Origin: Anoxybacillus tengchongensis
Lineage (GTDB): Bacteria; Bacillota; Bacilli; Bacillales; Anoxybacillaceae
Direction of reading: 5' to 3'
Assembly: GCF_014201585.1 (NCBI RefSeq)
Contig: NZ_JACHES010000001.1
Coordinates: forward strand, 1 to 64,000
Length of the DNA: 64,000 bases
The notes beneath the pieces are model-generated. The model did not search any database. It saw only the letters and a list, made by a program, of their open reading frames with translations, and was not told where the DNA came from. Numbering within the stretch: position 1 is the stretch's first letter; each line of letters starts with the position of its first letter. Made by a program: the position numbers and the translations under genes. This document shows, piece by piece, positions 4,370 through 26,078 of this stretch.

Positions 4370-5490
4370 GATTGTCATTACAACCAATTGACACGTTTTT
4401 TTTCAAAACACATCACGTGACAGAAGCAGGGGAGCATACGGTGATGGAATCGATGTTTCCACCGCGTCCAAGCACCGTTTACGGTGCGTTGCGCGCAGCG
4501 TACATTCATGCTCATACGTCGTTTGACGAATTTGCACAAGGGACGAATGAACAGGTGCGTCTGTGGATGGGGACACCAGAGAGTTACGGAGAGTTTCGTC
4601 TCCAATATTGCACGCTATACCGAAATGAGCCGTTTTTGCCGCTACCGCTTGATTATCAATTGATCGAAGAAGACGGTAAACTATCAGCTCACTCTCTTCA
4701 ACTATCAAAAGACCATAAATTATCATCTATTTCCAATCCGTGGCGTTTAATTGCGACAAAACGAGCGAAGACGAAAGACGCGAAACATCATTGTGTAAGC
4801 ATGACACATTGGAAACAAGCGTTGCTAGATGGAAGAGAAATGACAGACATTATCTCGTTATCTTCCATCGTTATTCCGGAAGAAAAAGTGGGCATCCAGC
4901 TTAACACATATGCTCGGACAACAGAGAAAGGCCAACTATATCGTGCGACGCATTACCGTTTTCACGATGGATGGGAGCTTGCGGCATATGTTGAGAACGC
5001 CCCTGATTTTTCAAACGTTTCGTTTGCGCGCATCGGTGGAGAAAATCGTCCATGGGTCGTGCAGCAACAAAATGATTCGTTCTCATTGTGGAATGAAAAG
5101 GAAAAAGAAAAAATAGCAAGTCGCATTCGTCAAACGAAAAAAGCGAAAATCGTATTTCTTTCCCCTGCAATTTTCGCAGGTGGCGCTCGCCCGCGCCAAT
5201 TTGACGGAGAATATGTAACGTTACCGAACGGACTCAAGGTGAAGTGGCTAGCAGGCGCAATCGGACGTCCAGAGCTTTACGGTGGCTGGGATATCGTTCG
5301 TCACCGCCCGAAAGAGCGCATGCCGATGATTCCGGCAGGTTCTGTCATTTACGTGGAAATCGACAGTGAAGAACATATTCCACGTCTTATGGAACTAGCA
5401 AACGGTATGCATTTTACGGATGAAAACGCACACGAAGGGTTTGGTTTCGCTATGATTACAAGCGCAAATGAAAGCAAGGAGGAGTTATAA
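4366..5490 (+). CDS. cmr3: Type III-B CRISPR RAMP protein Cmr3
   Basis: Cmr3 binds the 5' handle of the crRNA and pairs with Cmr2 at the foot of the Cmr complex. The 374-aa protein has the family start (RLSLQPIDTFFFK) and a Gly-rich loop near the start (MFPPRPSTVYGALRAAY). A second Gly-rich segment lies close to the C-terminus (HEGFGFAMI). It starts at GTG, overlaps cmr2 by 4 nt and is preceded by a strong AAGGAGGGGGAG site. Confidence 0.9.
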   Translation: MRLSLQPIDTFFFKTHHVTEAGEHTVMESMFPPRPSTVYGALRAAYIHAHTSFDEFAQGTNEQVRLWMGTPESYGEFRLQYCTLYRNEPFLPLPLDYQLIEEDGKLSAHSLQLSKDHKLSSISNPWRLIATKRAKTKDAKHHCVSMTHWKQALLDGREMTDIISLSSIVIPEEKVGIQLNTYARTTEKGQLYRATHYRFHDGWELAAYVENAPDFSNVSFARIGGENRPWVVQQQNDSFSLWNEKEKEKIASRIRQTKKAKIVFLSPAIFAGGARPRQFDGEYVTLPNGLKVKWLAGAIGRPELYGGWDIVRHRPKERMPMIPAGSVIYVEIDSEEHIPRLMELANGMHFTDENAHEGFGFAMITSANESKEEL

Positions 5491-6775: not shown

Positions 6776-7933
6776 ATGAACAAGCGTCACCCCGCAAAAC
6801 AACAAGTACGAGAAGAAAAATATTTTCTTCCAAAGGATACGCATGCGATTTTTCGCGCTGCAAACGATCAGCAACTAACCCATTTAGCTTATCGTTTACA
6901 TTATGGGCTATCTCATGAGTTTGATGAGAAAAAAGGTTGCTATAAAGTGGCGAAACGTCTTCCTGTCGTATCCATTCATCCAGACGTTCAACAAGTGGCG
7001 AAACAAGCACTTCTTCATCGTGAGCGTTCGTTTGTTTCTTTTGCGCATATCGCATCTGTTCGGAAGCTCAAAGCTACGCCTGTCGGAAAAATGGTTCACG
7101 GGCTCGGTGCCGGTCACGTTCGCGAAACGTCGCTAACGATTCATCCAACGTACGGGATTCCATACATTCCAGCGTCAAGTTTAAAAGGTGTCGTGCGGCA
7201 ATGGTGGATCGAAGCGTACGGGGAAGGAAAAGAAGCCGCAATCGAACAGTCTAATGAAGCAACAGCGATTTTCGGTACACAGCAACGACGAGGTTGCGTG
7301 CAGTTTTACGACGTTTATTTAGTGAATGGGTTGCAACTCGTTCCAGAAGTAATGACGGTGCATATGAAGAAGTACTATGAAACAAAAGGTATGCCGACAG
7401 ATGATCAATCTCCGACACCTGTTTCGTTTTTTACAGTGAAAGTGACGGACGTCGACATTTATTTATCTTGTTTACATCTTGAGCAGCAGGCGGAGCAGTT
7501 GTTAAAGACAGCAACGGAGTGGACGATGCGGGCACTTGAGGAATTAGGAATTGGCTCAAAAACATCGTCAGGATATGGCTATTTTCGTAACGTGCGCGAC
7601 GTGACAGAACAAGAATTTCTTCCGCTTATGAAGCAAGCGAAAGAGCAAATCGAAAGCGAGATGCAAAAACAACAGCAACAAAAAGAAGAACAATACCTCG
7701 CTTCTTTGTCGCCGGAAGAACGATTAGTCAAAGAAATTGAACGATTAACAACAAACGAACAAGACCAGCAAAAAAGCAAATCGGAATTGTACAAACAAGT
7801 CATTGAAACGAAAAATAAAGATGCTGCTCGTGCGCTGAAAGCATATTGGGAAAAAATCGGCGAATGGAACGTAAAGCCAAAACAAAAAAAGCAATATGAG
7901 AAAGTACAAGCCGTTCGTGCATTGCTAGAATAG
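6776..7933 (+). CDS. cmr6: Type III-B CRISPR RAMP protein Cmr6
   Basis: Cmr6 caps the end of the Cmr4/Cmr5 helix next to Cmr1. The 385-aa product has a RAMP core with PYIPASSLKGVVRQWW and the C-terminal Gly-rich segment GIGSKTSSGYGYFRN. About 100 residues follow that are unusually charged and Gln-rich (MQKQQQQKEEQYLASLSPEERL) and likely form a coiled coil. This tail looks longer than the minimal fold needs. The ATG at 6776 follows AAGGAGAG. It is the last cmr gene; a hairpin follows. Confidence 0.9.
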   Translation: MNKRHPAKQQVREEKYFLPKDTHAIFRAANDQQLTHLAYRLHYGLSHEFDEKKGCYKVAKRLPVVSIHPDVQQVAKQALLHRERSFVSFAHIASVRKLKATPVGKMVHGLGAGHVRETSLTIHPTYGIPYIPASSLKGVVRQWWIEAYGEGKEAAIEQSNEATAIFGTQQRRGCVQFYDVYLVNGLQLVPEVMTVHMKKYYETKGMPTDDQSPTPVSFFTVKVTDVDIYLSCLHLEQQAEQLLKTATEWTMRALEELGIGSKTSSGYGYFRNVRDVTEQEFLPLMKQAKEQIESEMQKQQQQKEEQYLASLSPEERLVKEIERLTTNEQDQQKSKSELYKQVIETKNKDAARALKAYWEKIGEWNVKPKQKKQYEKVQAVRALLE

Positions 7934-7943
7934 TTATCATGAC

Positions 7944-7990
7944 ATGCCATCGCTCTCTCATAGAGATGCGGTGGCAGTTTTATAGTTTTA
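7944..7990 (+). terminator. Likely terminator after cmr6
   Basis: TGCCATCGCTCTCT and AGATGCGGTGGCA form an imperfect stem with a CATAG loop, followed by TTTTATAGTTTT. It separates the Cmr operon from the next operon. Confidence 0.55.
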
Positions 7991-8060
7991 TGCAATACAA
8001 TTTCTTTCTCTGGTATTTTTTGACTTTATTAAAGTAGGAATTTTTTGAGGGGATATGTTT

Positions 8061-9551
8061 ATGGCGTATGAAGCACTTATGTTTGATCTTGACGGTACGT
8101 TAGTTGATACTTCAGCAATAAAAACGTGGAGAGAAAAAAGATTATGGCACGAGTGTATACGGCATTTCCGCTTTACTCGTTTCAATCCACATGTACGTTT
8201 GTTATTAAATAATATACAAAACAAAAAAATTGGAATTGTCACAAATGCTCCGTACATGTATGCTGAACCGCTTTTAAAATATCACGGTATTCGTTATGAT
8301 GCACTTATTTCCTATGAAAAAAATCGAAACAACAAACCATATCCAGATCCATTATTTCGTTGTGCCCAACATATGAATGTTCACATTAAACATTGTATAT
8401 ACGTTGGAAATGAAGCGATCGATATTGCAGCAGCGAAAGCAGCAGGCTGTACATCTGTGGCATATGTGAATACATATAGTGAAATCGAACAATTGCTTGT
8501 TCATATGCCTCATTTGATCATTAATAATTTTTTAGATTTACAGCATATACTAACCGAAGAGAAAGAGATGAAGAAAACAGCTCAAAAACGTTTTGAACAG
8601 GCATTAGAGGAAAAACACAAGGGGAATGGCTCGGGATATTTTCGCTATCTCAGAGAGGCAAGCGATCAAGGACATGGACTTGCACAGTATTATCTTGCTA
8701 AGTTGTTACGCAAAAACCCCCATCTTCTTCACGAAGGGAAAAATGTACACGACTTGTTGTGGAGTGCTGCAATGAAAATGATACCAGAAGCCATTTTTGA
8801 ACTTGGTCAATTGTTTGAAAAGGAAAATGAATGGGAGAAAGCAAAACATTTTTATCGTGTTGCTGCTCATATGGGTTACGCTCCCGCACAATATTTTTTT
8901 GCAAAGATGAAATTACGAACTCCGTTTTCACACATGAAATTGCATATTGCTTATCATTGGATAAAAAAGTGTAGTGAAAAACTTAACCAAACTCTCCCTC
9001 TTTTAAACCAAGTGGAGAAAATTGTGCAATTTGAAAACGACCTAAGACAGCATTTCCACTATGACAAAGGAAATGAAATTTTTTTTATATGCAACTACCT
9101 TCCAAACGAAAAATATAAAGATGAATATTCTATGCGTATATTAGGTGTAAAGGAACGGAAGCAGGCGGATATTGCCTATTTTTGTGAGCGTATTTCTCCT
9201 CTTATTTCAGACGACATCGTAATATGTTGCTTTCCTTCTTCAGATCATCGTAATATTTTGACAGGCATACGTGAAATTGCTCAATTTGTTGCACAAGAGA
9301 AAGGGATAGATGGCACGGATTGTCTCGTTAGATGGAAAAGCCGTGAGAAAAGTTCTTATGGTGGAGAAAGAAATATACAGTCACATGTGCAAACAATGAA
9401 AGTTTTTAAGCGAGAAAAAATTGTGGGAAAGCATGTGCTCCTTTTAGATGATGTTACAACATCAGGAAGTTCACTTCGGGCGGGTGAGCAGTTACTTCTT
9501 GAATCAGGTGCCTTATATGTGACAAAACTTGCCCTCGGAAAAACGAAATGA
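8061..9551 (+). CDS. HAD phosphatase-Sel1 repeat-phosphoribosyltransferase fusion (ShosT-like)
   Basis: This 496-aa protein has three parts. Residues 1-165 are a HAD hydrolase: DLDGT with D9/D11, VTN at 60-62, K92 in KPYPDP, and VGNEAID with D121, where the usual first Asp of motif IV is Asn. Residues 170-320 contain Sel1/TPR-like helices (SDQGHGLAQYYLAKLL, AAHMGYAPAQYFFAKM). Residues 335-496 are a phosphoribosyltransferase with the PRPP loop LLDDVTTSGSS at 461-471. HAD-PRTase proteins beside DprA proteins are known from ShosTA-type toxin-antitoxin/anti-phage loci, and I infer the same kind of role. The ATG at 8061 has GAGGGG 8 nt before it; the ATG at 8055 is too close. It overlaps the potential upstream start of the DprA gene. 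A salvage enzyme is the alternative. Confidence 0.7.
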   Translation: MAYEALMFDLDGTLVDTSAIKTWREKRLWHECIRHFRFTRFNPHVRLLLNNIQNKKIGIVTNAPYMYAEPLLKYHGIRYDALISYEKNRNNKPYPDPLFRCAQHMNVHIKHCIYVGNEAIDIAAAKAAGCTSVAYVNTYSEIEQLLVHMPHLIINNFLDLQHILTEEKEMKKTAQKRFEQALEEKHKGNGSGYFRYLREASDQGHGLAQYYLAKLLRKNPHLLHEGKNVHDLLWSAAMKMIPEAIFELGQLFEKENEWEKAKHFYRVAAHMGYAPAQYFFAKMKLRTPFSHMKLHIAYHWIKKCSEKLNQTLPLLNQVEKIVQFENDLRQHFHYDKGNEIFFICNYLPNEKYKDEYSMRILGVKERKQADIAYFCERISPLISDDIVICCFPSSDHRNILTGIREIAQFVAQEKGIDGTDCLVRWKSREKSSYGGERNIQSHVQTMKVFKREKIVGKHVLLLDDVTTSGSSLRAGEQLLLESGALYVTKLALGKTK

Positions 9552-9571
9552 GGATAAGGAAGGGGAACGTC

Positions 9572-10555
9572 ATGCGAACATTATGGTTAGCTTTCACATT
9601 TGTTCGAGGCCTTGGGGCAAAAAGAATAAAGAATATATATGATACGATGCCACAGTTAACGGAAAATTATTTTCATGATGATGAACAAAAGCATATATTA
9701 ATGAAAGTGATTAAAAATAAAAATATTTTAGATGTTTTATTTCATGAAAAAACAATGAAAGAGTATATAAAGCAAGCACAAGAAGTAATATGGCATCATC
9801 AAAAGCAAGATATAAACGTCATTACAATTGGAGACGAGTATTATCCAAAATTATTGAAAAAGCTAGATGATCCTCCGATTGCTCTCTACTGTAAAGGAAA
9901 TATTGAATTATTACAAACATCTGATCATATTGCTATCGTCGGCACACGCCATCCAACGGAAATCGGGAAAAAGTTTGCACGAAGGATTGCAGAAGTATTT
10001 GTCGAAAAAGGATATTGTATTGTTAGTGGGCTAGCTATAGGAATTGATACGGAAGCTCATATTGGTACGTTAGATGCGAAAGGAAAAACCGTTGCCGTTT
10101 TAGCAGGTGGTCTTCATTCAATTTTTCCAAAAGAAAATACAAATTTAGCACACCGAATTATTGAAAATGGGGGGGTGCTTATATCCGAGCAAGCGATTGG
10201 ATCCCCAGCATTTCGAGCTGCATTTGTACAAAGGGATCGCATTCAAAGTGGATTGTCTTTAGCTGTTTGTCCAGTACAGACAGATATCGAAGGAGGGACA
10301 CAAAACACCATTCAATTTGCACGCAAACAAAATCGCTTATTGTTTTGTCCTGTTCCAATTGAGAATGTCCCAGCAACTCGTGGAATTTTTAAACTATTAG
10401 AAGAAGATGCTATTCCTTTGAAGACTTCAAGTGATCTGCCCTATATTATACAAAATATTGAAAACAAAAAGGTTGAGCTACTTGAAGATAATAAACAAAG
10501 TAGCAAGCCGATACTTAACTGCAAGACAGTTGAGCAATTAAATTTGTTTGACTAA
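9572..10555 (+). CDS. DprA/Smf-family DNA-binding protein (ShosA-like)
   Basis: This 327-aa protein has the DprA Rossmann fold: VGTRHPT at 123-129, SGLAIGIDTEAH at 152-163, and the FVQRDRIQSGLSL region at 218-230, where chromosomal DprA usually has RNR. Classical DprA loads RecA on incoming single-stranded DNA. A copy in a defence island directly behind a HAD-PRTase gene fits the antitoxin or DNA-sensing partner of ShosTA-type systems (inference). It lacks a recognisable C-terminal winged helix. An ATG at 9548 overlaps the upstream stop. The ATG at 9572 has AAGGGG about 8 nt before it and is preferred. Its AT-rich codon use resembles the two genes after it. Confidence 0.75.
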   Translation: MRTLWLAFTFVRGLGAKRIKNIYDTMPQLTENYFHDDEQKHILMKVIKNKNILDVLFHEKTMKEYIKQAQEVIWHHQKQDINVITIGDEYYPKLLKKLDDPPIALYCKGNIELLQTSDHIAIVGTRHPTEIGKKFARRIAEVFVEKGYCIVSGLAIGIDTEAHIGTLDAKGKTVAVLAGGLHSIFPKENTNLAHRIIENGGVLISEQAIGSPAFRAAFVQRDRIQSGLSLAVCPVQTDIEGGTQNTIQFARKQNRLLFCPVPIENVPATRGIFKLLEEDAIPLKTSSDLPYIIQNIENKKVELLEDNKQSSKPILNCKTVEQLNLFD

Positions 10556-10581
10556 TCTTCCGGAAAGGATATGTTTTTTGT

Positions 10582-11889
10582 ATGGTCAGTCAACTTGATG
10601 AAATGATCAAACTTATTAATGCTGGAAATTTACAAGAAGCAAAAAAACAGTTTTGTGAAAAAGCTAGTTCATTGAGCAAATATGATTATTTTAAACTGTC
10701 AAAACATTTATCAGAACGTGAATACCACTTGGAAAGCATGAGCGTGCTAAAAAAAGGTTTAGAGTATTTTCCGAAAAATGAATATCTTATTCGGAGTCTC
10801 GTTCCTAAAGTATATAAGCATATTATTCGTCGTTTTTATAATGAAAAGCATATTCCAGAAGAACAATATACAGCAACAATTGAATATATTGATCGTATAT
10901 TAGAAGAAATGAACCGAGGGGAGTACAGTTATATTTATTTAAGACATGTGGACTATTTACTAACAAAACAAAACGTAAATAAGGAGATAGTCTTAGCTTA
11001 TTTACAGCGTCTCAAAGGATTTCCGTTAAGCAAAGATGCTTATAAAAATGGAGAACAGTCGTTTCCATCCCCATATGAAAAGTGGGTGACGAAAACGGCA
11101 AAGCTTCAGTTTGAATTAAAGCAATACACACGATGTATAGAGACCGTGAATGAGGCATTGAAAGCTCCGATTTCTTGGCATTATCATAACGATATTTGGC
11201 TTTTACGATTAAAAGCGCGTTCTTTGTGCTTTCTTGGAGAAATAACCGATGCGGTTCGCATATATGAAGAATTGTTACTTAAACATCCAACGTGGTTTAT
11301 GTATCGGGAAATGGCTGAGTGTTATGAAAACATAGGAGAGCGACAAAAAGCGTTGTATTATGGAGCGAAAGCTTGTTTAAGTCGTGATGCTGAGCCAATG
11401 AAATGTGGAAAGTTATATACAATGATGTATGAATGGCTTGTTGAAAGTGAGGAGTATATGGCGTTTGTACATATAGACTATATCATTCAAGTCTATAAGG
11501 AAAACGATTTTCACGTAGATGAAAAAACGAAAAAATTACATGAACGCATATGCCAAAAATACGAGCAGCCAAAAAACATTCGTCAAACGTTAGAAAGGTT
11601 TTGGTTTCATATCATTGAGAGGATAATACCACGACACGAAGGAACGATTTGTAAGCTTCTTCCTAATGGGAAAACAGGATTCATTGAATATGGCAATAAG
11701 CAAAAAATTTATTTTAAAAAATCTGATGTACGTTTTCCAAAGAAACTTGTGCAAGAGGGAAAAAAGGTGACGTTTTTTATCGAAGAGTCGTTTGATTTTG
11801 CGAAAAATCGGCGTTCGCAAATCGCACAATATATTTGTGAGGTGAACGATGAAGAACATTGCCCCAAAAGCATTCCAATGTCCAAATGA
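10582..11889 (+). CDS. TPR protein with C-terminal cold-shock/OB-like domain
   Basis: The function is not known. The 435-aa protein is mostly paired helices of TPR type (for example EAKKQFCEKASSLSKYDYFK, then repeated units through about residue 300). It ends in a region near 350-420 that resembles a cold-shock domain. In that region TGFIEYGNKQKIYFKKSDV mimics the RNP1/RNP2 arrangement of nucleic-acid-binding OB folds. There is no signal peptide or membrane helix. It sits 26 nt behind the DprA-like gene and overlaps the next gene, so all four are likely co-transcribed. A plausible job is sensing RNA or single-stranded DNA for the operon (inference). Confidence 0.6.
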   Translation: MVSQLDEMIKLINAGNLQEAKKQFCEKASSLSKYDYFKLSKHLSEREYHLESMSVLKKGLEYFPKNEYLIRSLVPKVYKHIIRRFYNEKHIPEEQYTATIEYIDRILEEMNRGEYSYIYLRHVDYLLTKQNVNKEIVLAYLQRLKGFPLSKDAYKNGEQSFPSPYEKWVTKTAKLQFELKQYTRCIETVNEALKAPISWHYHNDIWLLRLKARSLCFLGEITDAVRIYEELLLKHPTWFMYREMAECYENIGERQKALYYGAKACLSRDAEPMKCGKLYTMMYEWLVESEEYMAFVHIDYIIQVYKENDFHVDEKTKKLHERICQKYEQPKNIRQTLERFWFHIIERIIPRHEGTICKLLPNGKTGFIEYGNKQKIYFKKSDVRFPKKLVQEGKKVTFFIEESFDFAKNRRSQIAQYICEVNDEEHCPKSIPMSK

Positions 11890-12361
11890 CTTGTTTCATG
11901 AAATTGAAAAAAGATTGCACACGCATGAGTTAGTTATATACTCTAGAAAAGATCATCCATATCATTTTATTTTAGAAGTGGGAACGAAAGAGAGAAAAAT
12001 TGGTAGAATAAAGTGTCATTACAATAAATTTTTTCGTTGTACATCTGTGGAGATGATTGATGCTATGGATGACATTTATCCTTTGCTTGTTCAGCTGTTT
12101 CCAATAAAAAAGATAAAGGATAATCAAGTCGATGAACTTGCTCGTTATTTAATAATTAACTACCATTTCGAAGTTCATATTATTCATCGTGATCGTGTAA
12201 GAACATGCTACGAAATTCGTTTTAGGGATCAGTTCATTTGGGTAAATATAGAAAACAAACATGAAAATTCATGCACATATGTACAAGGTGATTTGGATTT
12301 CTTTGACGAAGTGTACCATATTTATATTGACTTTGAACGTATCATAAGACAAACACAGTAA
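11849..12361 (+). CDS. Unrecognised 170-aa protein, last gene of the PRTase-DprA operon
   Basis: I do not recognise this protein. It is 170 aa, rich in aromatic and basic residues, with no signal peptide, membrane helix or obvious catalytic motif. The start overlaps the preceding gene by 41 nt and has a strong GAGGTGAACG ribosome site, so it is probably translated from the same message. It ends just before the leader of CRISPR array 1. The overlap suggests a functional link to the TPR-OB protein. Confidence 0.55.
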   Translation: MKNIAPKAFQCPNDLFHEIEKRLHTHELVIYSRKDHPYHFILEVGTKERKIGRIKCHYNKFFRCTSVEMIDAMDDIYPLLVQLFPIKKIKDNQVDELARYLIINYHFEVHIIHRDRVRTCYEIRFRDQFIWVNIENKHENSCTYVQGDLDFFDEVYHIYIDFERIIRQTQ

Positions 12362-12382
12362 AATCCACTTATTGTGAATTTC

Positions 12383-12559
12383 TTCACAACTGTCGTCGAC
12401 CCCCAATCGTGCAAAAACCCCGGGGGATCGACGACAGTTTGTATGTTGCAATTTTTTCAGTTGTATCAACGGATATAGACTATTGACTGAATTTTCGAAT
12501 GTATGTATAATATCAATGTATAGCTTTTCCATGTGTTGATTTATCAACATTTTTTTGGG
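12383..12559 (+). promoter_or_regulatory. Leader of CRISPR array 1 with promoter and stem-loop
   Basis: A non-coding leader lies before the first repeat and is nearly identical to the leader of array 2. It holds a strong stem-loop at 12388-12439 (AACTGTCGTCGA pairs with TCGACGACAGTT, with an inner CCCCC/GGGGG). It also holds a sigmaA-type promoter: TTGACT at 12483-12488, a 17-nt gap, TATAAT at 12506-12511. Transcription would start about 40 nt before the first repeat. The last bases before the repeat (TTTTTTGGGG) are shared and may be part of the integration signal. Confidence 0.85.
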
Positions 12560-14219
12560 GTTTGTATCGTACCTATGAGGAATTGAAACATTGTATAGCG
12601 CTGATCTGGCCGTTTTCTGTATAGAAGAGTTTGTATCGTACCTATGAGGAATTGAAACTCGGGTCAATAAAGAAAACTATTTTGAAGTTGAAAACGCGTT
12701 TGTATCGTACCTATGAGGAATTGAAACTTTCAGTATCGCTGAATTAAGCCGTTTTCACTTACTCCCAGTTTGTATCGTACCTATGAGGAATTGAAACATC
12801 GTATTAAACGCGGAGATACATGTACGATTGAAGCAGGTTTGTATCGTACCTATGAGGAATTGAAACTCAATCTTTTTCAAGCGTTCAAAATAAATCGGCA
12901 TCGGTTTGTATCGTACCTATGAGGAATTGAAACTGATACAACAAGATTGCTGAAAAAAATGTCGAAATGGTTTGTATCGTACCTATGAGGAATTGAAACA
13001 CCCACGGCGCAGGACAATTTTTTCTGGTGATGTCATGTTTGTATCGTACCTATGAGGAATTGAAACGGACTTGACTTAGACACGTTGATTCTAATCATTC
13101 TGTTTGTATCGTACCTATGAGGAATTGAAACTGTTCTGCGACGACTAAAAGGCCCTTCTGCCATCCGTAGTTTGTATCGTACCTATGAGGAATTGAAACG
13201 CGAATACAATCGTGTATTCGCCGTCCGCAACCCATTTCGTTTGTATCGTACCTATGAGGAATTGAAACGATGCTTGCAATCGGAAGAGGAGGTAGCTAGG
13301 TGGATAGAGTTTGTATCGTACCTATGAGGAATTGAAACATTTCGATACAACTTTTTGAAGCGTGAAAAATCCTTGTTTGTATCGTACCTATGAGGAATTG
13401 AAACCTAAAAATTTCATTTTTACTTCCTCCTTTGTTTGTAAGTTTGTATCGTACCTATGAGGAATTGAAACAAGTTATCTTCTGTTGTTTTTTCTATTTG
13501 TACTTCAACCGTTTGTATCGTACCTATGAGGAATTGAAACACGACGAAAGATGGCTTCTCTTTCGTCGACTTCTCCTGCGTTTGTATCGTACCTATGAGG
13601 AATTGAAACATGAAGATTTTTCAATAATTGGAATGAGAAATCTCAATGGTTTGTATCGTACCTATGAGGAATTGAAACTATGAATGGGTGTGGATAGATG
13701 ACGAAGCAGGCCAAAGCGTTTGTATCGTACCTATGAGGAATTGAAACTCGCTAATTTTCCGCTCAATTTTTCTGAAGGTATGGTTGTTTGTATCGTACCT
13801 ATGAGGAATTGAAACGTGCAGAGGCGTACAAGCATTGGGCTGTCCTGTTGGAGTTTGTATCGTACCTATGAGGAATTGAAACTCCACTCCGTCACGATTT
13901 GTAAGAACGCTTGTGATTTTTGTTTGTATCGTACCTATGAGGAATTGAAACAAGGCAATGGCTGATATATTTGATAGCATTTCGGATGTTTGTATCGTAC
14001 CTATGAGGAATTGAAACCGCCCATCTTCTAAATTTTTCAATCCGCTTTTCCATTCGTTTGTATCGTACCTATGAGGAATTGAAACCCATACCAAACAACA
14101 TTCCACGCAGCATACCCGATTTCCGTTTGTATCGTACCTATGAGGAATTGAAACGCAGAAATGCAATATTCGCTCGCACGAGATGAAGAAATTTGTATCG
14201 TACCTATAAGGATTAAAAA
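12560..14219 (+). CRISPR. CRISPR array 1: 24 identical repeats plus a degenerate last one, 24 spacers
   Basis: The 30-bp repeat starts GTTTGTATCG and ends GAGGAATTGAAAC. Twenty-four copies from 12560 to 14154 are identical. A 25th copy at 14191-14219 has decayed (ATTTGTATCG... GGATTAAAAAA), marking the trailer end and confirming the plus orientation. Spacers are 35-40 nt. The ATTGAAAC end is the usual 8-nt 5' handle of type I-B and type III crRNAs. Leader at the left, decay at the right. Confidence 0.99.
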
Positions 14220-14259: not shown

Positions 14260-14883
14260 TTATACGTTCCAGAGACCTTTCTTTTGTTGGCGTGCTTTTC
14301 GTTCAGCCTCAAGAAAACGTTGTTGATACTTTACATTTGGTTGAATCGTCATCACACGTGCGTATCCGTCTTTGACGAGCGTTTCGTTGTAAAGCTCTTT
14401 TCCAATCCAAACGTATGCTAGGAATCTGCCGTATTTATCTTTTATTCCTACATCGAACTCAAGTGTAACTGTTTGATTAGTCAATCGTTTTTTTGTGTAA
14501 TTAGATGCTTCTTTTCCATATTTCTCGACTGGTTTTTGAGGATGGACGGTTTCTGGTGTATTAACCCCAATGAAACGAACTCGTGACGTTGCGCCGTTAG
14601 AGAAGCGTACATCGATCGTGTCGCCATCTACTACACGAATGACTTTTACGATATGTTTTGAGTTCACACGAATAGTAGGGACACTCGTGGCTTTACTTTT
14701 TTGGCGAATAATGTTGCCATTTTTATCATGATAATGATACTTTCCCGTTTCTAGCCCCCATTTTTCACAATTAGTTCGACAAGTATGTCCACCATTTGCA
14801 TCTGTTTTTCCTGGATGGGCGTATGCGGAAGAAGTAAATAAAAAAATGAAAGCAATGAGAAAAGAAAATATGGCTCTAAACAA
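14260..14883 (-). CDS. Secreted thermonuclease (SNase-like) with YHYH-type N-terminal segment
   Basis: This is a 207-aa exported nuclease of the staphylococcal nuclease family, expected to degrade DNA and RNA outside the cell. Residues 1-22 are a signal peptide ending SSAYA. Residues 23-60 carry HPGKTDANGGHTCRTNC and KYHYHDKNG, a metal/cell-wall-associated segment often seen before such domains. The SNase core shows VVDGDTID, RFIGVNTPET and DKYGRFLAYVW; the usual Ca-binding Asp before TPE is Asn here. It starts at TTG, with AGGAGGAAG before it. The gene is oriented against all the surrounding CRISPR genes, converges on array 1, and may be a chance insertion. Confidence 0.87.
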   Translation of the reverse strand: MFRAIFSFLIAFIFLFTSSAYAHPGKTDANGGHTCRTNCEKWGLETGKYHYHDKNGNIIRQKSKATSVPTIRVNSKHIVKVIRVVDGDTIDVRFSNGATSRVRFIGVNTPETVHPQKPVEKYGKEASNYTKKRLTNQTVTLEFDVGIKDKYGRFLAYVWIGKELYNETLVKDGYARVMTIQPNVKYQQRFLEAERKARQQKKGLWNV

Positions 14884-23179: not shown

Positions 23180-23929
23180 ATGCGTTTAACGATTACATTA
23201 CGGGGAACAGACGGAACGGTTATATTGCCACTTCATTATCAGCAATATTTACAAGGGCTAATATACCATTCACTCAGCGATGAGGCATTTGCTCACTTTT
23301 TGCATGATCGTGGATTTCGCAAAGAAAAGCGATCGTTTAAAATGTTTACATTTAGCCGCTTATTTGGCGAACATTACATTCAATACGATGCCAAAACGAT
23401 TACTTTTGTTGATTCGATTCAATGGCACATTGGCACTGTGCTTCCTGAACTGACGCAACAGTTAGGGGAATATTTATTGCTTCAGCCATACGTAAAAATT
23501 GGTGATCAGCATGTCATCGTTGAGCGAGTGGAAACCGAGAAACGAGCAATTGAGCAACGTGAAATTGAAATCGATATGTTGTCGCCGATGACTGTATACA
23601 GTACGTACGAAACGGTGGATGGGAAGAAAAAAACACAATTTTTTGACCCGAACGATGAAGTGTTTCCCCATTTAATGGAACGGAATTTTCATAACAAATA
23701 TGAAGCATACTATGGGGTTCCACCGAGCGATCGGTTACTCATCGAACCTGTCGATGTTCGAAAAAACGATCGGATCGTAACGAGCTTTAAAGGCTTTTAC
23801 ATTACAGCGTGGAAAGGGCGGTATAAGCTTATTTCTTCTCCAGAAAATTTAACGTTTTTGTATCGTGTAGGTATCGGCGGACGAAACTCACAAGGATTCG
23901 GCATGTTTCGTATTGCAAATAGAAAGTGA
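23180..23929 (+). CDS. cas6: Cas6 crRNA-processing endoribonuclease
   Basis: Cas6 cuts pre-crRNA inside each repeat to leave the ATTGAAAC handle. The 249-aa product has the Cas6 fold signature: an early LPLHYQQYLQGLIYHSLSD helix with candidate catalytic His, and the C-terminal Gly-rich GIGGRNSQGFGMF loop. It is the only Cas6 seen, so it probably processes both arrays and supplies both the I-B and III-B complexes (inference). The second array leader begins right after it. Confidence 0.93.
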   Translation: MRLTITLRGTDGTVILPLHYQQYLQGLIYHSLSDEAFAHFLHDRGFRKEKRSFKMFTFSRLFGEHYIQYDAKTITFVDSIQWHIGTVLPELTQQLGEYLLLQPYVKIGDQHVIVERVETEKRAIEQREIEIDMLSPMTVYSTYETVDGKKKTQFFDPNDEVFPHLMERNFHNKYEAYYGVPPSDRLLIEPVDVRKNDRIVTSFKGFYITAWKGRYKLISSPENLTFLYRVGIGGRNSQGFGMFRIANRK

Positions 23930-23935
23930 AGTATT

Positions 23936-24111
23936 TCACAACTGTCGTCGACCTCCAATCTTGCAAAAACCTCGGGGGATCGACGACAGTTTGTATTTTG
24001 CCACTCTTTCAGTTGTATCAACGGATATAGGCTATTGACTGAATTTTCGGATGTATGTATAATAACATTGTATAGCTTTTCCAAGTGTTGATTTATCAAT
24101 ACTTTTTTGGG
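23936..24111 (+). promoter_or_regulatory. Leader of CRISPR array 2
   Basis: This is a near copy of the array 1 leader, with a small number of substitutions. The stem-loop lies at 23940-23991. The promoter has TTGACT at 24035-24040, a 17-nt gap and TATAAT at 24058-24063, and the run before the first repeat again ends TTTTTTGGGG. Confidence 0.85.
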
Positions 24112-24889
24112 GTTTGTATCGTACCTATGAGGAATTGAAACTAAGCTGGTTCAATATCTTGACGGCGAACCTTATAATAGTTTGTATCGTACCTATGAGG
24201 AATTGAAACATGATATGATAGACAGCATTCATTTCTTTTTTTACAATGTTTGTATCGTACCTATGAGGAATTGAAACAAATCAGTAATACCGCTATTACC
24301 AAAATAAAAGGCTGTTTGTATCGTACCTATGAGGAATTGAAACGAGTTTTCGTATCCCGACCCGAACGCAACCGAATCGCAAGTTTGTATCGTACCTATG
24401 AGGAATTGAAACTCCTCAATCCACGTCTTTCCATCCCAAATAAGCCACTGTTTGTATCGTACCTATGAGGAATTGAAACTCTGTTCGGTGGAAAAGATGA
24501 ATCCTCGCAAGACCTCGTTTGTATCGTACCTATGAGGAATTGAAACTTAGGAGGAAAAGATAATGGCACAAATTAGCTTCGAGGGTTTGTATCGTACCTA
24601 TGAGGAATTGAAACCAGCTTGAAAGAAGGTGTGAAATGGTGGTAGATGCGTTTGTTTGTATCGTACCTATGAGGAATTGAAACTTTGCAAATACATAACC
24701 AATCTTTGTTTTACCAATGTTTGTTTGTATCGTACCTATGAGGAATTGAAACGAACCATTGAAACTCGACGGGAACGAGCGAGCGATGATTGTTTGTATC
24801 GTACCTATGAGGAATTGAAACTGGTTTTTCAACATATTGCTTACTTGCAAATCCTCTACGTTTGTATCGTACCTATGAGGAATTGAAAC
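24112..24889 (+). CRISPR. CRISPR array 2: 12 identical repeats, 11 spacers
   Basis: The 30-bp repeat is the same as in array 1. Twelve perfect copies lie between 24112 and 24889, with spacers of 36-39 nt. The last copy is perfect, not decayed, and a tnpB element begins within about 65 nt. The trailer end has therefore probably been lost or displaced. Confidence 0.99.
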
Positions 24890-24953
24890 AAGTTTTCAAG
24901 GAGCGTTTCTGTTAGAAAGGTTTTCAAAACATTTCTAGCGGGAGGTGAAAGTC

Positions 24954-26078
24954 TTGCCCGTGCATAAAGCGTATAAGTTTCGCATGTACCCGAACAAAAA
25001 ACAAGAGGTGCTAATTAATAAAACGTTCGGATGCTCACGTTTTGTGTTTAACCATTTTCTCGTCAGATGGAACGACACATACAAAAAAACAGGGAAAGGA
25101 CTGTCTTATCAGGCGTGTTCTTCGCAATTGACCAAGTTGAAAAAAGAATACACTTGGCTCAAAGAAGTGGACAGCATCGCACTTCAAACCTCGCTGAAAC
25201 ATTTGTCGGATGCATTCACACGATTTTTCCAAAAACAAAACGACAAACCTCGTTTTAAGTCAAAGAAGAACAAGGTGCAATCGTATACAACGAAATACAC
25301 GAAAGGAAATATAGCGATTGTAGGTAACAAAATCAAGCTTCCGAAACTAGGATTCGTTCGTTTTGCCAAAAGTCGTGAGGTAGAAGGACGTATGTTATCC
25401 GTCACCATTCGACGCAATCCAAGCGGAAAATATTTCGTATCCATTCTTGTAAAAACAGATGTGCAACCACTCCCAAAAACACATACTGCTGTTGGTATCG
25501 ACATGGGTTTAAAGAACTTTGTCATTCTTTCAGACGGAACAACGTATGCGAATCCAAAATTTCTTCGGAAACTTGAAAAAAAATTAGTCAAAGCTCAACG
25601 CATTCTTTCTAGGCGCAAAATCGGGAGTTCGAATTGGCATAAGCAGCGAATCAAGGTTGCGCGCATACACGAGAAAATCACAAATTCCCGAAACGACTAC
25701 TTGCACAAAATCTCCACCGAGATCGTCAAAAACCACGACATCATCGGGATGGAAGATTTGTCAGTTGCTAGCATGCTCAAAAACAACAAACTCTCCAAAG
25801 CGATCTGCGAGGCGTCATGGGCAACGTTCAAAGCGATGATCGCATACAAGGCCAAGTGGTATGGGAAGCAATTGGTTGTGGTGGCGAAAAACTTCCCATC
25901 GAGCCAGTTATGCTCCCATTGCGGATATCAAAATAAAGACGTGAAACATCTCACTTTGCGTGAATGGCAATGCCCAAATTGCCATACCCGTCATGACCGA
26001 GATGTGAACGCAAGTATCAATATTAAGAATGAAGCCGTTCGGCTTCTAACCGCAGGAACTGCGGGGCTAGCCTACTAA
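24954..26078 (+). CDS. tnpB: TnpB RNA-guided nuclease (complete)
   Basis: This complete 374-aa TnpB has an N-terminal helix-turn-helix-like domain ([20 protein letters not shown]) and a RuvC domain with all three acidic residues: D183 in [10 protein letters not shown]267 in GMEDLS and D350 in DRDVNAS. A zinc finger is formed by CSHC (320-323) and CPNC (340-343). It is expected to cut DNA matching its guide RNA and so help keep the element. It starts at TTG, with GGAGGTG 6 nt before it; the GTG at 24945 lies within that site. There are no signs of decay. Confidence 0.92.

Follow-up and report, generated by a model that had tools for sequence, protein, structure and literature searches.

A four-gene operon of Anoxybacillus tengchongensis, probably an expanded ShosTA-type toxin-antitoxin system

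ShosTA systems, the closest described relatives of the genes analyzed here, combine a HAD-phosphoribosyltransferase (PRTase) protein, ShosT, with an adjacent DprA-like partner, ShosA. In the relevant passages of one report, a system of DprA plus PRTase protects against T7 and lambda (PMC9122126), and the passages of a review that cover a 2025 study describe ShosT as an enzyme with PRTase and pyrophosphatase activity that upsets the pools of purines, ShosA as a DNA-binding protein and T7 Gp0.7 as a trigger of ShosTA (PMC12593503). Here, we describe a four-gene operon in a stretch of 64,000 nucleotides from Anoxybacillus tengchongensis (contig NZ_JACHES010000001.1, positions 1–64,000; hereafter the window). 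A preliminary description, made from the sequence alone, had seen four closely spaced or overlapping genes on one strand between a Cmr operon and a CRISPR array. This layout held up: all four open reading frames (ORFs) are intact (Table 1), the upstream neighbor is Cmr6, which ends at 7933 and belongs to a type III-B Cmr operon, and the array begins downstream at 12560. We conclude that the operon is probably an expanded ShosTA-type toxin-antitoxin (abortive-infection) system; its kinship to ShosTA is very likely, and a role in defense, judged by kinship and distribution, is probable.

Gene 1 and gene 2 correspond to the two components of ShosTA (8zvb–8zvd, 9vzo), whereas the extra Sel1/TPR arm in gene 1, the two further genes and the toxin-first order set the four-gene operon apart from ShosTA. 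The HAD residues D, D, T, K and D of gene 1 are invariant in an alignment of the five intact loci described below, as are the core residues of the phosphoribosyl pyrophosphate (PRPP) loop, which lies at residues 461–471 as originally proposed; the early assignment of the HAD acid pair to D9 and D11 is correct if translation starts at 8061. HAD motif I reads DLDGT in gene 1 and SIADV at the same place in the ShosT row (one example), so that the acid pair is out of register in that row. An AlphaFold2 (AF2) model of gene 1 (mean pLDDT 84, the HAD part weakest) placed the HAD domain at residues 1–165, helices at 169–333 and the PRTase domain at 335–498, and the profile of the helical arm matched Sel1-repeat structures, in keeping with the Sel1-type linker suggested earlier. 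Among the ORFs of the loci collected, this arm profile matched those of the five four-gene loci and one decayed copy, and no others. A Foldseek search of the PDB with the gene 1 model returned the ShosT structures 8zvb, 8zvd and 8zvc at ranks 2, 3 and 6 over 537–553 columns. The Pribosyltran match of gene 1 fell under Pfam's cut-off, and gene 1 also matched the ComF family (E 4e-8).

The DprA fold first assigned to gene 2 was confirmed by Pfam (DNA_processg_A, E 3.4e-63). PADLOC's ShosA profile matched it at E 3e-75 (251 bits), NCBIfam's dprA model reached 190.6 bits, marginally below its cut-off of 191.15, and the family profile of gene 2 matched solved ShosA 9vzo at E 4e-39. The sequences solved as ShosT (E 7e-294 over all 424 residues) and as ShosA 9vzo are both those of P2_4C9 phage proteins. 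These matches, together with the PADLOC ShosT call on gene 1 and the ranks of the ShosT structures, uphold the earlier suggestion that the PRTase-DprA pair is ShosTA-like. A tree of 82 DprA-like proteins, which has long branches and a root placed solely for drawing, united the five four-gene members in one clade (100/98), with a Priestia plasmid protein as its nearest neighbor (99/99), and set gene 2 apart from the ordinary DprA of its own genome. The latter is a separate copy on another contig; its C-terminus lacks the clamp-type motif discussed below, and what gene 2 has in common with the DprA of natural transformation is the Rossmann/SLOG core. By profile and tree, gene 2 belongs with the ShosA-like DprAs, separate from the ordinary DprA that the genome also carries. 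In PsyrTA and RqlHI, too, a DprA-like protein keeps a PRTase effector in check (for RqlHI, as set out in passages of PMC4670107); RqlH differs in having a RecQ-like helicase, and the RqlI-like protein that we examined from a plasmid lacks a clamp-type tail.

The four genes are a conserved unit. Each of five intact loci, namely the window and four others from Bacillota (Anoxybacillus vitaminiphilus, L008/L018; Aquibacillus halophilus, L019; Rossellomorea aquimaris, L015/L020; a record titled Paenibacillus bovis, L016/L021), carries all of them, the genes of the four others being 26–62% identical to those of the window. The window and A. vitaminiphilus have the genes arranged as 1-2-3-4, and the remaining three as 3-1-2-4, indicating that the linkage survives shuffling. 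Homologs of genes 3 and 4, which the preliminary description had wished to see beside other PRTase-DprA pairs, thus recur there in five of five intact loci; as the loci were found via gene 1 or gene 4, this is a count of what the searches reached and not a frequency. A sixth copy, in the same genus (L007), is decaying, broken by frameshifts and transposase insertions.

Simpler HAD-PRTase-DprA units occur on plasmids and phages, with the same core activities fused or split. The three genes are separate in S. meliloti and Segatella, HAD and PRTase are fused in Psychrobacter, Bradyrhizobium, S. fredii and P2_4C9, and HAD is fused to DprA in Deinococcus. In the stretches examined around the plasmid units (Priestia, Psychrobacter, Bradyrhizobium, Sinorhizobium, Segatella), neither genes for TPR-OB or TBP-like proteins nor a Sel1 arm were present. 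The Priestia DprA, closest to the four-gene clade, ends QLNMFNF, and the PRTase beside it was seen only with a home-made profile (E 6e-14). Because such simpler units exist and the arm was seen only in four-gene loci, we regard the operon as an expanded ShosTA variant in which, by inference from these sequences, the Sel1 arm and genes 3 and 4 go together. The preliminary description had called the operon an expanded relative, and to this extent it was right; the HAD domain does not count toward the expansion, and its candidacy as a novelty was rejected, because plasmid and phage units carry it fused or split and solved ShosT has the same domain order. On a Hymenobacter plasmid, an unannotated ORF that follows a PRTase-DprA pair (L056, 3726–4244) matches the home-made HAD profile (E 3e-45), making this locus a three-gene HAD unit too.

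Genes 3 and 4 distinguish the operon from these units. Gene 3 matched PADLOC's PDLC01170, 'TPR fused to cold shock-like OB' (E 9e-41); its TPR hits in Pfam were weak, and positions 354–407 of its profile gave weak matches to cold-shock and UNR structures (E 0.01–0.13), all in line with the TPR repeats and cold-shock-like end noticed at the outset. Gene 4 had been left unrecognized, and it indeed has no match of its own in Pfam, NCBIfam, PADLOC or PHROG. Its relatives matched the Pfam domain TBP-TOTE (PF22721; L019 at E 9e-6, L015 at 1.6e-4, L016 at 0.0096 and L008 at 0.012), as did a helicase fusion at locus L025 (E 4e-6), and the N-terminal half of gene 4 matched this fusion in a profile comparison (probability 95). 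An AF2 model of gene 4, built from five sequences (pLDDT 84), consists of two units of helix, four strands and helix that fill the chain. Ranks 1–6 of its Foldseek search were all RnlA (144–154 columns, E 3.7e-3 to 1.7e-2, root-mean-square deviation (rmsd) ~15), and a second structure aligner gave Z 6.0–6.3 for the halves on RnlA and 6.2 for the full chain, scores that unrelated rows equaled. The first domains of RnlA, the RNase LS toxin, are TBP-like, two in tandem, and its last domain holds the RNase site. Residues 11–169 of gene 4 align with RnlA 13–187, and each half by itself aligns with an RnlA N-terminal domain; RnlA, at ~345 residues, continues to its last domain, whereas gene 4 stops at 170 residues and lacks the C-terminal RNase domain. 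The model therefore likely depicts a tandem TBP-like protein, a predicted nucleic-acid binder without nuclease. Both gene 3 and gene 4 probably bind nucleic acid, and we put their being a sensor at a little under an even chance. A profile comparison of the two halves of gene 4 gave no signal of an internal repeat (probability 3). Two further hits were rejected as gene 4 relatives (G584 and G446, E 8e-5 and 7e-4 only; tblastn found no convincing adjoining match to genes 1–3). A scan of 229 genomes with the TBP-TOTE family returned nothing and was uninformative, because its controls returned nothing either.

Gene 2 ends in a candidate docking motif for the sliding clamp (DnaN), for which the binding consensus is QL[SD]LF. 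The form Q[LI]xLFD is the C-terminal end of all five four-gene DprAs, and in the alignment this tail stands at the extreme C-terminus, preceded by a variable stretch. Solved ShosA 9vzo ends QLSLLGDE and so also has a clamp-type pentamer, QLSLL; the construct in 8zva ends 14 residues before that end. The literature searched contained no report linking ShosA to the sliding clamp. We surveyed the tails of DprA-like proteins from viral contigs (80 loci), plasmids and genomes, of which 97 were complete and 83 remained once near-copies were removed. A DprA was scored as linked if it had a PRTase or HAD neighbor within 1.2 kb on the same strand (called with home-made profiles, many of the PRTase calls being weak), and the pentamer was defined as Q[LIMV]x[LMI][FLY] within the last 14 residues. 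It was present in 11 of 52 linked DprAs and 0 of 31 others (Fisher 0.006), or in 11/53 and 0/30 (0.006) after the HAD-DprA fusion L055 was moved to the linked group; these p-values, like those that follow, are optimistic owing to the relatedness of the sequences. Only one of 1314 other ORF C-termini had it (stop-to-stop ORFs of at least 150 amino acids, genes or not). A stricter form, fixed before the viral tails were seen and after the plasmid and P2 ones, gave 10/53 versus 0/30 (0.012). A wider form that admits a hexamer, drawn up after the tails had been seen, gave 19/53 versus 0/30 (7e-5), with two matches among the 1314 other ORFs, and 8/34 versus 0/29 in the viral loci alone (0.006). Tighter neighbor cut-offs put one or two pentamer-bearing rows in the other group (10/36 versus 1/47; 9/23 versus 2/60). 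Among the 22 DprAs with a HAD neighbor or fusion, 10 had the pentamer and 14 had either form. The motif-bearing rows are spread over several clades of the DprA tree, and the tail is absent from the DprAs of Psychrobacter, Segatella and Hymenobacter, from the RqlI-like protein and from others. As a sequence feature, the tail is rare and recurrent, but few independent cases tie it to the class as a whole. Outside the ShosA half of the tree, three phage DprAs beside PRTase-like ORFs (L118, L114, L110) end QLAFQF, QLVMDFI or QLALAGL.

Searches for genes 1, 3 and 4 returned few copies. Gene 4 was found in 3 of 41 family genomes, its own and the decayed copy included, and its four matches in 398 class genomes were its own, one helicase fusion and two that were weak and unlinked; in the genome-contig collection, 4 of 31 pattern matches were confirmed. 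Gene 1 was found in 5 of 299 order genomes, counting its own, the decayed copy and one HAD-only match, and its profile had 15 matches in 398 phylum genomes, with the full length in the window only. The gene 3 profile matched in 3 of 398 class genomes, once weakly. Against viral contigs, none of 54 gene 4 pattern hits and 1 of 43 gene 3 pattern hits were confirmed (a wider alignment recovered the same locus, 1 of 51), and gene 1 had at least four partial hits. On plasmids, genes 3 and 4 had no match, and gene 1 had partial hits only, as on phages. An integrase adjoins one copy of the operon and a DDE transposase another. In A. vitaminiphilus (L008), the cassette fills a small contig between transposase-like coding sequence at 1–219 (by eye) and a DDE_Tnp_1 match at 4719–5444, in opposite orientation, like insertion sequence-flanked cargo.

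If the operon is an expanded ShosTA-type system, gene 1 would be the toxin, its use of PRPP and its phosphatase domain damaging the nucleotide pool, as reviewed for ShosT. Gene 2 would be the antitoxin and would restrain the toxin while bound to DNA and docked by its tail on the sliding clamp of replication. The TPR-OB and TBP-like proteins would bind nucleic acid and touch the toxin via the Sel1 arm, such that a phage-induced change in replication or in transcripts would free the toxin and growth would stop. A bolder version, which we consider unlikely, holds that ShosA-type antitoxins in general, that of the E. coli P2 phage included, sit on the sliding clamp. The four-gene form would then be a replisome guard in which a clamp-docked DprA holds a nucleotide-poisoning HAD-Sel1-PRTase protein and the TPR-OB and tandem-TBP pair reads invader RNA or DNA via the Sel1 arm and triggers it. 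The points of most specialist interest are the clamp-type tail and the TBP-like reading of gene 4. The tail, present in the studied ShosA too, would if its proposed role is true tie ShosTA-type defense to the replisome; in the four-gene form, a defense toxin gains, as a single package, a new arm together with two candidate readers of nucleic acid, and the question of the sensor becomes addressable gene by gene.

Several observations weigh against parts of this reading. The superposition of gene 1 on ShosT was poor overall (rmsd 23–24, TM 0.21–0.29) and plain HAD structures scored alike, so the likeness rests on the HAD-then-PRTase order and the partner gene. PADLOC's ShosT profile is non-specific: of 119 Bacillota genomes 47 were positive, as were 4 of 14 controls, including B. 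subtilis. It was rejected as a specific marker; the positives were mostly frames of ~220–330 amino acids, ComF-sized in appearance. All TBP-TOTE matches were below the gathering score (27 bits), the window's own gene 4 giving none, and every RnlA match of gene 4 was weaker than E 0.001. Among 9 genomes of the genus, the window's own included, 7 lack gene 4 and another has it broken. As for the tail, even the wider pattern is missing from 34 of 53 linked DprAs, and the viral loci taken by themselves, the closest to a fresh test, had the pentamer in 2/34 versus 0/29 (p 0.5). Because of this lack of enrichment, we lowered our estimate that gene 2 docks on the sliding clamp, made from its sequence, from an even chance to slightly below one. 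That the QLxLF tail instead docks on another target, or is merely part of the fold, is a tentative alternative of some weight: many related DprAs have different tails and the viral loci show no enrichment of the pentamer. On the other side, the tail fits the clamp consensus, stands last in the chain behind a variable stretch, is nearly absent from the 1314 other ORF C-termini and has a counterpart at the end of the studied ShosA.

The operon as a whole might also be read as a TOTE-type system first, in which genes 3 and 4 are a recognition core for varied effectors and HAD-PRTase-DprA is one cassette, possibly an enzyme acting on invader nucleic acid and not a toxin-antitoxin pair. We think this a real possibility, short of an even chance. 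In TOTE conflict systems, to which the operon is likened through the name that Pfam gives to the matched domain, TPR-OB and TBP-like proteins are adjacent, as here; the domain matches are below the curated cut-off and the effector of the four-gene operon is ShosTA-like. Domains like those of genes 3 and 4 also have other partners. At L025 (4807–7195), a decayed TPR-OB gene is followed by an SF1 helicase with a gene-4-like TBP domain in its C-terminal part, a second partner type, and at L052 (5707–8339), a TPR-OB gene precedes a protein that weakly matches RnlA_toxin and is methyltransferase-like in its C-terminal part. Apart from these two and a weaker gene 3 match at L045 (E 5e-9), the profiles of genes 3 and 4 matched, outside the four-gene group, a few unlinked ORFs at E 4e-5 to 0.008. 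Against this reading, the alternatives found number only two, of which one is decayed, and the protein at L052 was rejected as a gene 4 relative when a profile comparison gave no signal. L177, a third TPR-OB gene outside the group, has a dCTP-deaminase-like neighbor, and its 10.6 kb contain nothing that the gene 4, PRTase, HAD or DprA profiles match. Distant genes would be missed at viral loci, because their flanks are only 3.5 kb.

Two other roles appear less probable. A metabolic or repair function, with a phosphatase/PRTase nucleotide-salvage enzyme and a DprA-like recombination mediator serving DNA repair or competence, would suit domain types that also occur in housekeeping proteins, as the ComF match and ordinary DprA illustrate; we consider it improbable, since an ordinary DprA is encoded elsewhere in this genome, the distribution is patchy with mobile neighbors, and the nearest outside relative is plasmid-borne. 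Least probable is an accessory operon of type III CRISPR, an effector downstream of the neighboring Cmr system. The position between Cmr genes and a CRISPR array, seen in the window and in one genome of the same genus, would fit such a role, as would the neighboring CARF-RelE gene, which shows that accessory toxins are used at this locus. That position, however, is common only to the window and the decayed copy L007; inspection by eye showed no cas-like genes in the ORF lists of three more four-gene loci (the contig of the fourth is too short to judge). The four proteins, moreover, have no CARF-type match in Pfam, PADLOC and NCBIfam (for gene 1, among the best 25 of 48 NCBIfam matches), and a hairpin separates the operons. 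The expanded ShosTA-type system remains the reading we prefer.

Table 1. Features of the four-gene operon and its upstream hairpin (window coordinates)
Feature	Position	Strand	Remarks
Four-gene operon	8055–12361	+	All four ORFs intact
Gene 1 ORF	8055–9551	+	498 aa; candidate ShosT-like toxin made up of HAD, Sel1/TPR-like helices and PRTase; likelier start 8061
HAD domain	8055–8549	+	HAD_2 E 5.2e-17; motifs DLDGT, T/N, K, GNEAID retained
Helical Sel1/TPR-like arm	8559–9053	+	AF2 helices 169–333; profile match to Sel1 structures
PRTase domain	9057–9548	+	Pribosyltran E 4.7e-5; ShosT profile E 1.4e-17 over 332–497
PRPP loop LLLDDVTTSGS	9438–9470	+	Invariant DDxTTxG
Gene 2 ORF	9548–10555	+	335 aa; ShosA-like DprA; likelier start 9572
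QLNLFD, candidate sliding-clamp (DnaN) binding motif	10535–10552	+	Gene 2 C-terminus
Gene 3 ORF	10582–11889	+	435 aa; TPR repeats and C-terminal cold-shock-like OB domain
OB/cold-shock-like domain of gene 3	11629–11835	+	Invariant G, GFI, F columns
Gene 4 ORF	11849–12361	+	170 aa; predicted tandem TBP-like protein and nucleic-acid-binding adapter
First TBP-like repeat of gene 4	11882–12097	+	Helix, four strands, helix; RnlA 6y2s Z 6.3
Second TBP-like repeat of gene 4	12134–12355	+	RnlA 6y2r Z 6.0, 6y2p Z 5.2
RNA hairpin and T-rich tail between Cmr6 and gene 1	7941–7979	+	Probable terminator

The later starts given in Table 1 for genes 1 and 2 are likelier because homologs begin 'MAYEAL..'-like (gene 1) and 'M..WIAL..'-like (gene 2) and because Shine-Dalgarno spacing, judged by eye, is consistent with them; the start of gene 1 agrees with the preliminary description. 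Depending on the start of gene 2, genes 1 and 2 overlap by 4 bases or are 20 bases apart; 26 bases separate genes 2 and 3, and the overlap of genes 3 and 4 is 41 bases. The strong hairpin with a T-rich tail upstream of gene 1 (-22.8 kcal/mol, z -4.37, equaled by 0 of 200 shuffles) suggests that the four genes are probably transcribed separately from the Cmr operon. It is absent from the list of a consensus terminator scan, and a consensus promoter scan found no excess of matches (17, versus 19.4 in shuffles).

The surrounding stretch holds further defense and mobile genes. A CARF-RelE-type accessory toxin gene stands at the head of the Cmr operon (676–1875; PADLOC E 2e-144). The leader regions of the two CRISPR arrays (12374–12589 and 23926–24141, 216 bases) are 92% identical, the repeat is identical in both arrays, and Cas1 and Cas6 genes lie directly before the second. 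Adjoining the end of the first array on the - strand is a gene of the Staphylococcal-nuclease family (14260–14883) with a signal-peptide-like start (by eye). IS605/TnpB-like transposase genes at 3–503 (by eye) and 24945–26078 (Pfam) flank this CRISPR/defense stretch.

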